Source: a virus. Taken from it: a stretch of 64,000 nucleotides of DNA. Each line of letters begins with the position of its first letter. Position 1 is the stretch's first letter. The stretch covers positions 1 to 64,000 of IMG/VR virus record IMGVR_UViG_3300033997_000243. The stretch is one strand, 5' to 3'. Shown one piece after another: positions 1-4,303 of this stretch. The notes beneath the pieces were generated by a model. The model did not search any database. It saw only the letters and a program-made list of their open reading frames with translations, and had not been told where the DNA came from. The translations under genes were made by a program, and so were the position numbers.

Positions 1-105
1 AAGATCTCAAGGCATTTGAATTAGCCCACAGCGATCAGTGGAACAGATCATAAAAAGGCGGAGGTCTGCCTAAAATTTGCCTTCGTCAAATTAACAGGCC
101 AGATC

Positions 106-126
106 TTTTTTTTTTTTTTTTTTTTT
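106..126. repeat. Homopolymer run of 21 T
   Basis: Twenty-one consecutive T directly follow AGATC at 101-105. This is far longer than any other homopolymer noticed in the window. It could be part of an unwinding element. The exact length is also the kind of feature that sequencing gets wrong. Confidence 0.9.
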
Positions 127-214
127 GAGGTGGAAAATGAGATCAGTAGAAAAGCAAAGATCTGTTTATTAATTGTTTGTTGGGGATCTGGGCATGGGGA
201 AATTGGATCAAGAT

Positions 215-238
215 CTTAAATCTACTACGTAGATTAAG
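215..238. repeat. Imperfect inverted repeat
   Basis: CTTAAATCTA (215-224) and TAGATTAAG (230-238) pair with a single bulged A around a CTACG loop. The hairpin lies inside the GATC-rich non-coding region and could be a protein-binding site or an RNA hairpin upstream of the first gene. Confidence 0.5.
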
Positions 239-330
239 AGCTGTACTTCGCTCCGCTTCGTACAACCTTAAAAGCAAACGAAAAAGCAAACATACTAACT
301 GGGTTATTGATCTTTTCCAGGATCCTTTTT

Positions 331-415
331 CCGGTTCCGCCGCGCCGACCTTTCCCCTCACCAACTTTCGCGGACACCGACAACCCGCAGCCGCGCCTTC
401 GCAGCTTCTTCAATA
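331..415. other. GC-rich non-coding patch upstream of the first gene
   Basis: About two thirds of the bases from 331 to 410 are G or C, against an AT-rich background everywhere else in the window. The patch is rich in CCGCGCC-like words, has no gene of its own, and ends just before the ribosome binding site AAGGAAAAC of the first gene. No function is recognised. Confidence 0.6.
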
Positions 416-425
416 AGGAAAACTT

Positions 426-860
426 ATGTACAATGACGAAACCTGTAAGCAATTAATCGAGCTTCAAAAGCTTGTCCATGATGCCAGACCAAAAGGTAAA
501 AAACGTGTTGAATTTGAAGAATTCAACCAACTTTTTAATGATCATCCAGAATTATTTTGCATTGGATTGACTAATAGGATATACCTATACTGTAAATATC
601 TTGATAGGCAAGTTCAAGATAGTTTTATAGAATACGTAAATCAGTCACATTCCAAACGAATACCACTAAAGAAAAAATTCCAATATAGAACAGCTTCTGA
701 GAAACGAGGTAAATTTCAATTTGTAGTATTTACTGAGCATCCAATTAAAGATAGTGGCTGGTATGTTTTTGGATTGAACACAGAATTTGCTATGGTTTCA
801 AAAGAAATGATGGATAAGATACAGTCCATTAAAGTCTCTTTTCTTAAAAACCAAATTTAG
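426..860 (+). CDS. Hypothetical protein, 144 aa
   Basis: Not recognised. The ATG is preceded by AAGGAAAACTT, a good ribosome binding site at normal spacing. The protein is soluble-looking, mixed charge, with no membrane segment or signal peptide. It has a lysine-rich stretch near residues 23-28 and aromatic-rich segments (Tyr-Leu-Tyr, Gly-Trp-Tyr-Val) that suggest a folded globular domain. It is the first gene after the origin-like region and precedes the metallopeptidase-like gene by 43 nt, so the two may be cotranscribed. Confidence 0.8.
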   Translation: MYNDETCKQLIELQKLVHDARPKGKKRVEFEEFNQLFNDHPELFCIGLTNRIYLYCKYLDRQVQDSFIEYVNQSHSKRIPLKKKFQYRTASEKRGKFQFVVFTEHPIKDSGWYVFGLNTEFAMVSKEMMDKIQSIKVSFLKNQI

Positions 861-903: not shown

Positions 904-2133
904 ATGACAAGTGTAATTTGTGGATTAAAAGCCGGAAAGAAACCTAAAACTAAGGTTAAGGCCAAGAAAGGCAAAGTAGAAGAAATTGTGGTAAAGAAAA
1001 AGAAGGTTGCTGTTACCAAAGTGGAATTGGGTGACATTGAAAAGACCAAAAAGAAAATGGCAAAGAAGATAGCTGAAGGCGCTATTGATAAGGCCAAAAA
1101 ATCTTCAAAAAAATCTGACTCTGATTCTAAAACAGTTGTTGAGTCCAGCCAAGTTGCTTACGAAAGTGATGATCACTTGATTGTAAAGATTGGCACTAAA
1201 AATGTTCTTGGTCTTTATATAGGCCGTAACCGAATTCTTTTAGAAGATGGGGTTGAACGTGATGACTCTGACAACCAAAAAGAATTTAAACCTGAAGATG
1301 TTATTGCTAACTTAGGCAAAAAGCCAGCTATCGGCAGCGTGTTCGGGGTTAAGATAGAACCTTTTATTAAAAAGTTGACTTTGCCTGATATTGGTGAAGT
1401 TCGTTTATACCGTGAAAAGTTTACTAAACAACATTTTGATCTTCTTAAAAGTTGTTCTGAAACAGTTTTCAAATTGTTCAAAAAACACCGCATGACTTCT
1501 TGGTTAGATAACTTTAGCCATATAGAGTTACGCACTAAAGTAAGTAAGTATGCCGGAACATTTACTTACAAGCGTACAAAAGAAGGTGGCAAAACAGATT
1601 TCATTGTTATCAACGGAATTAATTTCGATGATCGTCAATATCTGGAATACGTACTTACCCACGAATTCTGCCACGGTGTCTGGTTCCGCCAAGTTCCTGA
1701 TCACTTAAAATCAAAATGGGCTGGAGTTTATGGTAAGCGTATTAAACGCCAGTCATTCGATTCGGATGATCTGAAAACACTGTTAAAAGATATTCAAGGC
1801 TACGATGGCGCAATTAATGCGTTCATGAAAGAAATGGCTGACGAAAATCAAGTAACCTTGATTAAAGAAATTTATTCTTATATGAAGCGTGTTCATCGTC
1901 TTGATCGTAATGACGTTGACATGCTGGTTCAGAACAATCGTGATGCACTCGAAGAGTTATGGCCTGAGCATCAAGATATTAGCGATCAAGTAAACGATGT
2001 TGGTTCTGAATATGCCCTTACCAATGTACGTGAATTCTTCGCTGAAACAATGACAGCGCATCTGCAAGGTAAAAAATTGCCAAGCGATGTAACTAAGGCT
2101 TGCGAATCCACAATACAAAAGTTGATTCGTTAA
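904..2133 (+). CDS. Putative zinc metallopeptidase with basic N-terminal tail
   Basis: 409 aa. Residues about 10-80 are a lysine-rich low-complexity tail, likely disordered and able to bind nucleic acid. A globular C-terminal part follows, with HEFCH at residues 253-257, an exact HExxH zinc site. A candidate third ligand is Glu381 in FFAE, although 124 residues downstream is long for a gluzincin. The ribosome binding site is AGGAGAAAT just before ATG. A second HExxH protein lies at 62119-63039. Possible roles are processing of virion or host proteins, or an SprT-like function; neither is proven. An intrinsic terminator follows 8 nt after the stop. Confidence 0.6.
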   Translation: MTSVICGLKAGKKPKTKVKAKKGKVEEIVVKKKKVAVTKVELGDIEKTKKKMAKKIAEGAIDKAKKSSKKSDSDSKTVVESSQVAYESDDHLIVKIGTKNVLGLYIGRNRILLEDGVERDDSDNQKEFKPEDVIANLGKKPAIGSVFGVKIEPFIKKLTLPDIGEVRLYREKFTKQHFDLLKSCSETVFKLFKKHRMTSWLDNFSHIELRTKVSKYAGTFTYKRTKEGGKTDFIVINGINFDDRQYLEYVLTHEFCHGVWFRQVPDHLKSKWAGVYGKRIKRQSFDSDDLKTLLKDIQGYDGAINAFMKEMADENQVTLIKEIYSYMKRVHRLDRNDVDMLVQNNRDALEELWPEHQDISDQVNDVGSEYALTNVREFFAETMTAHLQGKKLPSDVTKACESTIQKLIR

Positions 2134-2187: not shown

Positions 2188-2868
2188 ATGAAAGTTCATA
2201 ACACAATAAACCCGTCCGACTACGACAAAAACTCCGAACTAAGATCAAAAGTTTGGACTGAATACACTGAAGGTCATCAAGTAATAGGTATTGATCTCGA
2301 TGAATCTATTCTGGCTACCGTAGAAGTTCTTCTTAACATGGTCAATGAAAGATGCGGAACAAAATACACGTTGTCTGATGTAGTTCGCTATGATATGGTT
2401 GAAACTCTTGGCCTCGATCTTCAAATGTTTTTGGATATTCTACATAACTCTAACTATTTGAGTATGACAAAACCATTTGAACATACAAAAGAATTCATAC
2501 GCAAATTGCGTGATGGAGAATTAAACGAGCAATTCAATTTACGTAATGACCAACCTGTTTACCTTGCATTTATTACACACAGAGGATTCCGCTCTGACGG
2601 CTTTAAACTAACTCACGATGTTTTAGTTGAGAGCGGTTTAATTCCAGATATGTTAATTGTTTGTCCTGTAGGGCATTCAAAGTTGGATATTCTCGATGAT
2701 TTATTTGGCGATAACGTACAACTGATTATAGAAGATCAGCCTAAGATCTTAAATGATTTTACTCAGGCTGGTATTCAAACTGTTAAAAATCTGCGACCTT
2801 GGAATAAAGATCATTGGACAGACTATACAATTGATCTTACTTGCAGTCCTGATCCAATATTTGCTTAA
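2188..2868 (+). CDS. HAD-superfamily 5'(3')-deoxyribonucleotidase-like phosphatase
   Basis: 226 aa from ATG 2188. HAD motifs are visible in order: DLDES with nucleophile Asp36 and acid-base Asp38, THRG (motif II Thr), a Lys in the GHSKLDIL segment (motif III), and IIEDQP (motif IV acidic residue). An alpha-helical cap of about 90 residues sits between motifs I and II, as in NT5C-type nucleotidases. The family dephosphorylates nucleoside monophosphates, so a role in managing the nucleotide pool during phage DNA synthesis is likely. The ATG was chosen over the in-frame GTG at 2143 because that codon lies in a terminator stem. Its ribosome binding site is weak. Confidence 0.7.
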   Translation: MKVHNTINPSDYDKNSELRSKVWTEYTEGHQVIGIDLDESILATVEVLLNMVNERCGTKYTLSDVVRYDMVETLGLDLQMFLDILHNSNYLSMTKPFEHTKEFIRKLRDGELNEQFNLRNDQPVYLAFITHRGFRSDGFKLTHDVLVESGLIPDMLIVCPVGHSKLDILDDLFGDNVQLIIEDQPKILNDFTQAGIQTVKNLRPWNKDHWTDYTIDLTCSPDPIFA

Positions 2869-2914
2869 TTGATTTGAACGCATTTACTCGCATTTACAAA
2901 TCAAACTTTTTACT

Positions 2915-3018
2915 CGATTCAATGTTAAAAATCAACAGCACTATAATTTGTATTTAGATAGTTCGCTATCTTCCTGGTGGATTAAAGTCAATGGATTTGA
3001 CGCTGTTGATTTGAATCG
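2915..3018. repeat. Long-range inverted repeat around the small-RNA promoter
   Basis: AAATCAACAGC (2929-2939) is the exact reverse complement of GCTGTTGATTT (3002-3012). Outside it, CGATTCAA (2915-2922) matches TTGAATCG (3011-3018). The left side carries about six extra bases between its two segments. The arms enclose a TATAAT box and a UUCG hairpin. They could form a long stem in a readthrough transcript, or a protein-binding site in DNA. Confidence 0.7.
2919..2956 (+). promoter_or_regulatory. Sigma70-like promoter of the small-RNA unit
   Basis: The -10 box TATAAT is at 2942-2947, with only a weak -35 match (TTCAAT, 2918-2923) at 18-nt spacing. The predicted start is near 2954-2956, exactly at the base of the first hairpin of the candidate RNA. 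Confidence 0.45.
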
Positions 3019-3100
3019 AAAATGGAGTGAGTTTCCCCTTAACTCCTATTAGATTTACTGGCTGGTTACGATACGCTAATGTCGTGCCAGCCATTTTTTT
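2955..3100 (+). ncRNA. Candidate small structured RNA, about 145 nt
   Basis: No ORF fits this gap, yet it has a compact transcription-unit layout. A TATAAT box lies just upstream. AGATAG-UUCG-CTATCT (2956-2971) would form a stable 5' hairpin. GTCAA/TTGAC (2987-3001) and GGAGT/ACTCC (3024-3046) form further hairpins, and an intrinsic terminator ends it (3060-3100). The reading frames contain only a 7-codon ORF (ATG 2991). It could be a phage regulatory RNA or a leader attenuator for the clamp-loader operon. This is inferred from structure only. Confidence 0.45.
3060..3100 (+). terminator. Intrinsic terminator upstream of the clamp-loader operon
   Basis: GGCTGG (3060-3065) pairs with CCAGCC (3087-3092), extended by ACGA/TCGT inside, and is followed by A and seven T. 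Confidence 0.85.
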
Positions 3101-3111
3101 GTCCTGTCAAT

Positions 3112-3132
3112 ACTGTAAATCCTAGTGTATAA
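3112..3132 (+). promoter_or_regulatory. Putative phage promoter motif before the clamp-loader operon
   Basis: ACTGTAAATC followed by TAGTGTATA. The first half recurs exactly at 28199-28208 before DNA polymerase, and the second half at 14473-14481 before the 14507 gene. It lies between a terminator and the ribosome binding site AGAGG of the next gene, where a promoter is expected. Confidence 0.4.
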
Positions 3133-3148
3133 ACCTAGAGGATTTACC

Positions 3149-4303
3149 ATGTCTAAAAAACTTGTCAGTAAGAAACCCAAAACACTCGAAAGTTACAACC
3201 TTCCTGAAAAATACCGTCCAACAAAACTTTCTGATTATATTGGTCAAACTAGCGCTCAAAATACAATGAGTGGTTGGCTTGAGCGTAAACGCTTTCCCTC
3301 AACAATTTTAATCAGCGGTTTAACTGGTAGTGGAAAGACCACGCTTGCCAAAATGATAGCGCGTTACGTAAACTGTGAAAAGAATACAGCTTGCGGTAAA
3401 TGTGATGCTTGTAAATTCTCTGATGACCAAATTCCAGATTTAATTGAAATCAATGCTGGTGAAGCTGGTAACATAGATGACATTCGCAATCTGTTACAAC
3501 GCGCAAAACGTACACCCCGTTTTAACAAACAAATCATTTTGATTGACGAAGCCCATTTACTTAGTGATAAAGCTGAAAGCACTTTGCTGGTTCCACTAGA
3601 AAAGCCGAGCAAAAACTGCATCTGGATTTTATGTACTACTAATCCAGAAAAACTTAAGAACACAATTCGCAATCGCTGCACACACATAACGCTTAATCCA
3701 ATATCAGCCAAAGAAGTTTATGCTCGTTTAGAGATCATTGTGAGAGAAGAAGGTCTTAAGATTAAAGACAAAGACTTATTCAAAAAATGCCTTAAGCGTA
3801 TTGCCGAACTTTGTGAAGGCCAGATGCGTAATGCAATAAGTATGTTGGACACATTGATCAGCATTGTTTCAAGTGGTAACAAATATGATGAAAGTGTTGT
3901 CAGCGATCTTGGTATGCAAGCAACTGAAGAAGAATTGAATTCTGTTTCTGCTGAAATACTTGTTGCAGTTCTTGGTAACAATTTGTTGGGTATCGTTAAA
4001 AACTGCAAAGGTTGCAAAGAACCTCGTAAACTTATTTCACAACTGCGTTATCTTATTGACTGGCAAATTGAAAGTATTACTGGCATTGCAAAATATGTTC
4101 CAGCCATTGGTAAACTTTTTGTTTCGTCCGTTAATAAAAACAAGGTAAAAGTTTCGTTGCCCGCTTTGTTAAAAGTTCAATCTGTTTTACTTGATGTCGA
4201 TCACAAAATCTTAACGGTTCCGGCTTATCCTGCGGCTGTTGCACTTTATACTGCATTAGCTGATTTAAGTGTTGACGACTATTTTAACAAGGTGAAAAAA
4301 TGA
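3149..4303 (+). CDS. dnaX: DnaX-like clamp loader ATPase (gamma/tau type)
   Basis: 384 aa. AAA+ ATPase that would load the sliding clamp on primed DNA. The N-terminal EKYRPTKLSDYIGQ matches the family opening. Walker A GLTGSGKT is at 57-64. Zinc-binding Cys76, 82, 85 and 88 sit where bacterial DnaX has its Cys cluster. Walker B is LIDEAH (131-136). RNRC corresponds to the SRC arginine-finger motif. The C-terminal collar region is present, but there is no tau-like extension. ATG 3149 was preferred to the upstream in-frame codon at 3125 because AGAGGATT precedes it. It is the first gene of a long replication/recombination operon and overlaps the next gene by ATGA. Confidence 0.85.
   Translation: MSKKLVSKKPKTLESYNLPEKYRPTKLSDYIGQTSAQNTMSGWLERKRFPSTILISGLTGSGKTTLAKMIARYVNCEKNTACGKCDACKFSDDQIPDLIEINAGEAGNIDDIRNLLQRAKRTPRFNKQIILIDEAHLLSDKAESTLLVPLEKPSKNCIWILCTTNPEKLKNTIRNRCTHITLNPISAKEVYARLEIIVREEGLKIKDKDLFKKCLKRIAELCEGQMRNAISMLDTLISIVSSGNKYDESVVSDLGMQATEEELNSVSAEILVAVLGNNLLGIVKNCKGCKEPRKLISQLRYLIDWQIESITGIAKYVPAIGKLFVSSVNKNKVKVSLPALLKVQSVLLDVDHKILTVPAYPAAVALYTALADLSVDDYFNKVKK

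Follow-up and report, generated by a model that had tools for sequence, protein, structure and literature searches.

In this virus, a long gap separates the nucleotidase-like gene from the clamp-loader gene, which raises the question of whether the gap encodes an RNA of its own or belongs to the message of a neighboring gene. The virus record comprises 319,518 bp (319.5 kb), of which the first 64 kb make up the window analyzed here, and its proteins are 34-47% identical to those of jumbo myoviruses, e.g., NCTB, PaBG and Lu11. From the end of the nucleotidase-like gene at 2868 to the clamp-loader start at 3149 there are 280 non-coding bases, "nucleotidase" being the name used by a first-pass annotation, which saw an independent regulatory RNA in this gap. 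Our results suggest that the element is probably the 3' UTR, long and structured, of the peptidase-nucleotidase mRNA, and that a stable RNA may be released from it; it looks more like a tail on the upstream message than like a small-RNA gene with its own start. The features are listed in Table 1, for which gene calls and promoter motif matrices were home-made.

Table 1. Positions of the features discussed (window coordinates unless prefixed; G000, the whole record; G001, its relative).
Feature	Position	Strand	Basis or remark
Candidate promoter of the peptidase-nucleotidase unit, middle-type motif ACTGTAAAT	589..597	+	score 17.6 against the motif matrix
Peptidase gene (phrog_17197)	904..2133	+	first gene of the upstream unit
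Nucleotidase-like gene	2188..2868	+	no Pfam match; PHROGs of unknown function; the putative 3' UTR starts at its stop codon
First hairpin of the putative 3' UTR (TTGATTTG/CAAATCAA)	2869..2904	+	folding
Outer stem, 5' arm	2914..2939 (2914-2922 and 2931-2939, 8-nt bulge between)	+	pairing probability >0.99
Hairpin A of the three-way junction	2959..2984	+	competing fold: UUCG hairpin, 2956-2971
Hairpin B of the three-way junction	2987..3001	+	folding
Outer stem, 3' arm	3002..3019	+	pairs with 2914-2939
Hairpin C, pyrimidine loop UUUCCC(C)	3024..3046	+	folding
Intrinsic terminator	3059..3100	+	folding; stem 3059-3093 plus seven T
Clamp-loader promoter motif ACTGTAAAT (middle-type)	3112..3120	+	score 28.0, above the training-set median
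Clamp-loader gene (phrog_5846)	3149..4303	+	next transcription unit
Gap after the major head protein gene	G000:76348-76573 (L095:16348-16573); G001:197685-197853; L227:4594-4800		outside the window
Early-type promoters with inverted repeat	G000:147408, 152051, 179372, 182649, 286009, 290575, 298023, 299838	-	

Coding potential and structure of the gap

The gap is non-coding. It had been described as holding no open reading frame longer than 7 codons, which is incorrect, as frames start at TTG 2948 (34 codons), ATG 2922 (11), ATG 3079 (17) and, on the minus strand, ATG 3094 (42). No good ribosome site was seen for the open frames in the gap, and the longest of them, 59 codons from stop to stop (2873-3049), scores as non-coding. 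A decayed-gene remnant with fortuitous folding, to which this frame could point, is extremely unlikely, and a coding remnant was rejected because the codon score falls below that of 99.7% of real genes and related peptides in either phage or in phage records occur only at chance level.

The RNA from 2915 to 3100 is predicted to fold at -59.4 kcal/mol (z -6.33), a value reached by none of 200 shuffles and ranking 8th among 10,646 same-length windows genome-wide after GC correction, and the wider stretch 2860-3160 gives a z of -6.55; the calculation is thermodynamic, without proteins or pseudoknots. Its dominant feature is a two-block outer stem with 18 Watson-Crick and no G-U pairs, which closes a three-way junction (2914-3019) that contains hairpins A and B. 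Two-block stems of this kind were found at 2 places in the 319 kb and at none in 20 first-order resampled genomes. The first-pass annotation had divided the gap into separate hairpins. Those at 2987-3001 and 3024-3046 are present, but the main structure is the outer stem (p >0.99), and the AGATAG-UUCG-CUAUCU hairpin at 2956-2971, although it can form, is a minority state (p ~0.19) at about -4 kcal/mol versus -8 for the competing hairpin at 2959-2984. The strong intrinsic terminator it reported is borne out, as the stem at 3059-3093 is followed by seven T and its pairing probability is ~1 in all contexts tried.

Conservation in related phages

Searches for relatives with the clamp loader and the tail sheath returned one 99.3%-identical variant and one relative, G001, while the other clamp loaders found share at most 41% identity and a comparable gap is absent from the further phages inspected. 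The exact stem-arm pattern matched 84 stretches in IMG/VR, among which only the near-identical variant is relevant, and a DNA similarity search of phages and plasmids gave chance-level matches. An Rfam search, which had been suggested as a check, returned no match at the gathering score and only chance matches at relaxed thresholds. A covariance model of the three-way junction, run against both genomes, found itself and one marginal match (E 0.038). The near-identical variant has zero changes between 2667 and 3319, which is compatible with constraint, but this is too little data to show selection.

With the close variant identical across the gap, G001 is the one informative relative. Its genome of 286,584 bp encodes proteins with about 50% identity (57% for the clamp loader, 53% for the nucleotidase, 77% for the sheath) and keeps the order of nucleotidase, 215-nt gap, terminator, ACTGTAAAT promoter and clamp loader. 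Among 146 gaps between conserved neighbors this one is the longest in both genomes, at 280 nt here and 215 nt in G001, where the 95th percentiles are 116 and 107 nt. Stop codon and terminator are 190 nt apart here and 123 nt apart in G001; across all terminators listed, the medians are ~40, a figure that misassigned cases inflate. The three-way junction is not recognizable in G001, whose gap cannot be aligned to the fold and, once the terminator is left out, shows no more folding than expected by chance (z -1.3); conservation therefore covers position and terminator, but not the fold. A UUUCCCC loop also occurs in G001, ~23 nt before the terminator, a weak match noticed post hoc. The two phages share a long non-coding tail and a boundary between transcription units rather than this particular fold.

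Promoters and the source of the transcript

The recurrent motif ACTGTAAAT is found a short distance upstream of 23 genes in this phage and of 22 in G001. In its fuller form, AaACTGTAAAT, it precedes more than 20 genes per phage by 20-80 nt, including those for DNA polymerase and the clamp loader, with copies in the window at, e.g., 3112, 10014 and 28199. The copy in the gap, which precedes the clamp-loader gene, was absent from the first-pass annotation, and the order of terminator followed by ACTGTAAAT recurs before the DNA polymerase gene. Another copy stands ~315 nt before the peptidase gene, as a motif match inside another reading frame, and G001 has one ~216 nt before its peptidase start. 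As this motif precedes the peptidase in both genomes, read-through from upstream is the simpler source of the RNA. The element also lies between the stop codon (2868) and an intrinsic terminator (3059-3100) on the same strand, as expected of a 3'-UTR-derived small RNA.

We propose that transcription would start at the middle-type promoter near 589, and that the polymerase would read through the peptidase and nucleotidase genes and then through ~230 nt of non-coding sequence. The tail would fold into a hairpin, the three-way junction with its 18-bp stem, the pyrimidine-loop hairpin and the intrinsic terminator. Transcription would end near 3100, and the clamp-loader unit would restart from its own ACTGTAAAT promoter at 3112. 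The folded tail may then shield the 3' end and survive decay as a stable RNA of roughly 185-230 nt.

The reading put forward earlier, an independent phage small RNA of ~145 nt running from a TATAAT start to the terminator, is unlikely. The TATAAT box is present at 2942-2947 and suitably spaced, and RNA starting at 2953 would still be well folded (z -5.0); moreover, TATAATTT is rare in the genome, with six of its 9 copies intergenic. As a promoter, however, the box is unsupported. It has no acceptable -35 or extended -10 element, is unlike the phage's early promoters, against which it ranks ~105th of the 164 TATAAT sites scored, and is not promoter-like by either phage-specific or sigma-70 tests. 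As judged by sequence tests, it matches none of the promoter classes found in this phage, and it lacks the GTAAG found after TATAATTTA in both phages at several other intergenic positions. Because the box sits inside the three-way junction, a transcript starting there would be missing the 5' arm of the outer stem, i.e., of the best-supported helix, which needs the upstream bases 2914-2939. Finally, the long gap and its terminator are also present in G001, but no promoter was recognized before that terminator. Thus, the earlier description of a non-coding, highly structured, terminator-ended RNA is supported, and this RNA matches no Rfam family, while an independent unit starting at ~2956 is not supported. 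Of the features of an independent small-RNA gene, a terminator without a coding frame is present and a functional promoter of its own was not detected by the same tests.

The early-type sites have the form CAAAAA...TTG...TTTTTGnTATAAT. In several of these promoters a CAAAAA...TTTTTG inverted repeat overlaps the spacer directly before TATAAT, and it sometimes doubles as a terminator hairpin. No match to PF00562, one RNA polymerase family, was found in the record, so use of the host polymerase is likely.

Possible functions in trans, as DNA or as an attenuator

A regulatory role of the gap RNA in trans is only a possibility. It seems quite unlikely that this is an undescribed phage RNA pairing with Shine-Dalgarno sequences of phage genes, as the loop of hairpin C might suggest. 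Its GUUUCCCCUUA has an 11-nt complement to the ribosome site before the phage groEL gene, and gene start regions pair with the loop better than internal regions by 1.7 kcal/mol, compared with 0.6 (sd 0.6) for shuffled loops. This difference is below 2 sd and no GGGGAAA sites occur in G001, so the anti-Shine-Dalgarno pairing is only a hint. The phage-encoded GroEL chaperonin (phrog_5725) lies at G000:106241-107848 on the minus strand.

It is very unlikely that the inverted repeat acts as DNA, either bound by a protein or belonging to a replication origin beside the clamp-loader gene. The purely Watson-Crick outer stem would suit such a site, as would its folding on the minus strand and the nearby contig end, a GC-skew minimum. 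However, the repeat sequence has no second copy in the genome, IMG/VR or phage records, GC skew follows gene direction, and G001 lacks the repeat.

A clamp-loader leader or attenuator is likewise a very doubtful reading, in which alternative folds would set whether upstream transcription passes the terminator. The terminator stands directly before the clamp-loader gene and the gap is almost wholly paired; in addition, TTGATTTGAA occurs at both 2869 and 3006, so the arms could exchange partners. Against this, the clamp-loader gene, here as in G001, has a promoter of its own downstream of the terminator, and no strong antiterminator was seen, the terminator remaining paired in each context tried.

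Comparison with known RNAs

A 3' UTR of the peptidase-nucleotidase message that yields a stable RNA would have parallels. In the jumbo phage PhiKZ, an RNA of ~100 nt confirmed by Northern blot is thought to be processed from a 3' UTR, and its second and last stem-loop is a possible terminator (PMC8545117). This PHIKZ298 3'-UTR RNA resembles the gap RNA in that it is intergenic in a jumbo phage, has no start site of its own mapped and likely ends in a terminator stem-loop (PMC8545117). It has two stem-loops, whereas the gap RNA has a three-way junction plus three hairpins, and we claim no sequence relation; expression has been shown for the PhiKZ RNA, whereas the gap RNA is a prediction from sequence.

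Small RNAs derived from 3' UTRs are well known in bacteria, and CpxQ, SdhX and OppZ likewise lie at an mRNA end and terminate in an intrinsic terminator (PMC9438474). These are released by processing, whereas processing, chaperone binding and a target are hypothetical for the gap RNA. Lambda PreS (LPR1), of ~88 nt, is also a phage non-coding RNA (PMC12197685). PreS acts on the replication gene dnaN (PMC12197685), and the gap RNA adjoins the clamp-loader gene. PreS is encoded between ea10 and ral and depends on Hfq (PMC12197685); what the gap RNA shares with it is limited to the neighborhood.

Other non-coding loci

A second long conserved gap follows the gene for the major head protein, which was identified in L227. 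Unlike the nucleotidase/clamp-loader gap, it shows sequence conservation across three phages, and it contains a hairpin loop, TAGAAAA-CTCTCAC-TTTTCTA, and a terminator, GAACCCGTATCGAG..CTTGGTACGGGTTTTCT. It is a better candidate for a conserved phage RNA than the nucleotidase/clamp-loader gap.

Outside the window, G000:301289-302354 on the minus strand (L107:1289-2354) is a stretch of ~1 kb without called genes, with a z of about -5, just downstream of tRNA-Gly(TCC) and with a terminator at its end. We take its layout to recall giant phage RNAs such as GOLLD and ROOL, although an Rfam search of this tRNA-Gly-side gap gave no match beyond tRNA and none to GOLLD or ROOL. In G001, a 1.6-kb gap (G001:108370-110001) holds tRNA-Gly and tRNA-Met.

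A large non-coding gap also spans the contig join (window 1-425 plus G000:318937-319518, ~1.0 kb; G001:124751-126129, ~1.4 kb). The join is a GC-skew minimum, and in G001 the gap carries several terminator-like hairpins; it is possibly an origin region or an RNA locus.

Implications for giant phages

Non-coding RNAs of giant phages are poorly catalogued, and the two candidates reported for PhiKZ were identified by inspecting it manually. The probable long 3' UTR described here, which keeps its position in two phages with only ~50% protein identity and is strongly folded in the one studied, is a concrete target for RNA-seq. More generally, long gaps between conserved neighbors flag candidate RNAs in such phages, one of them conserved in sequence.
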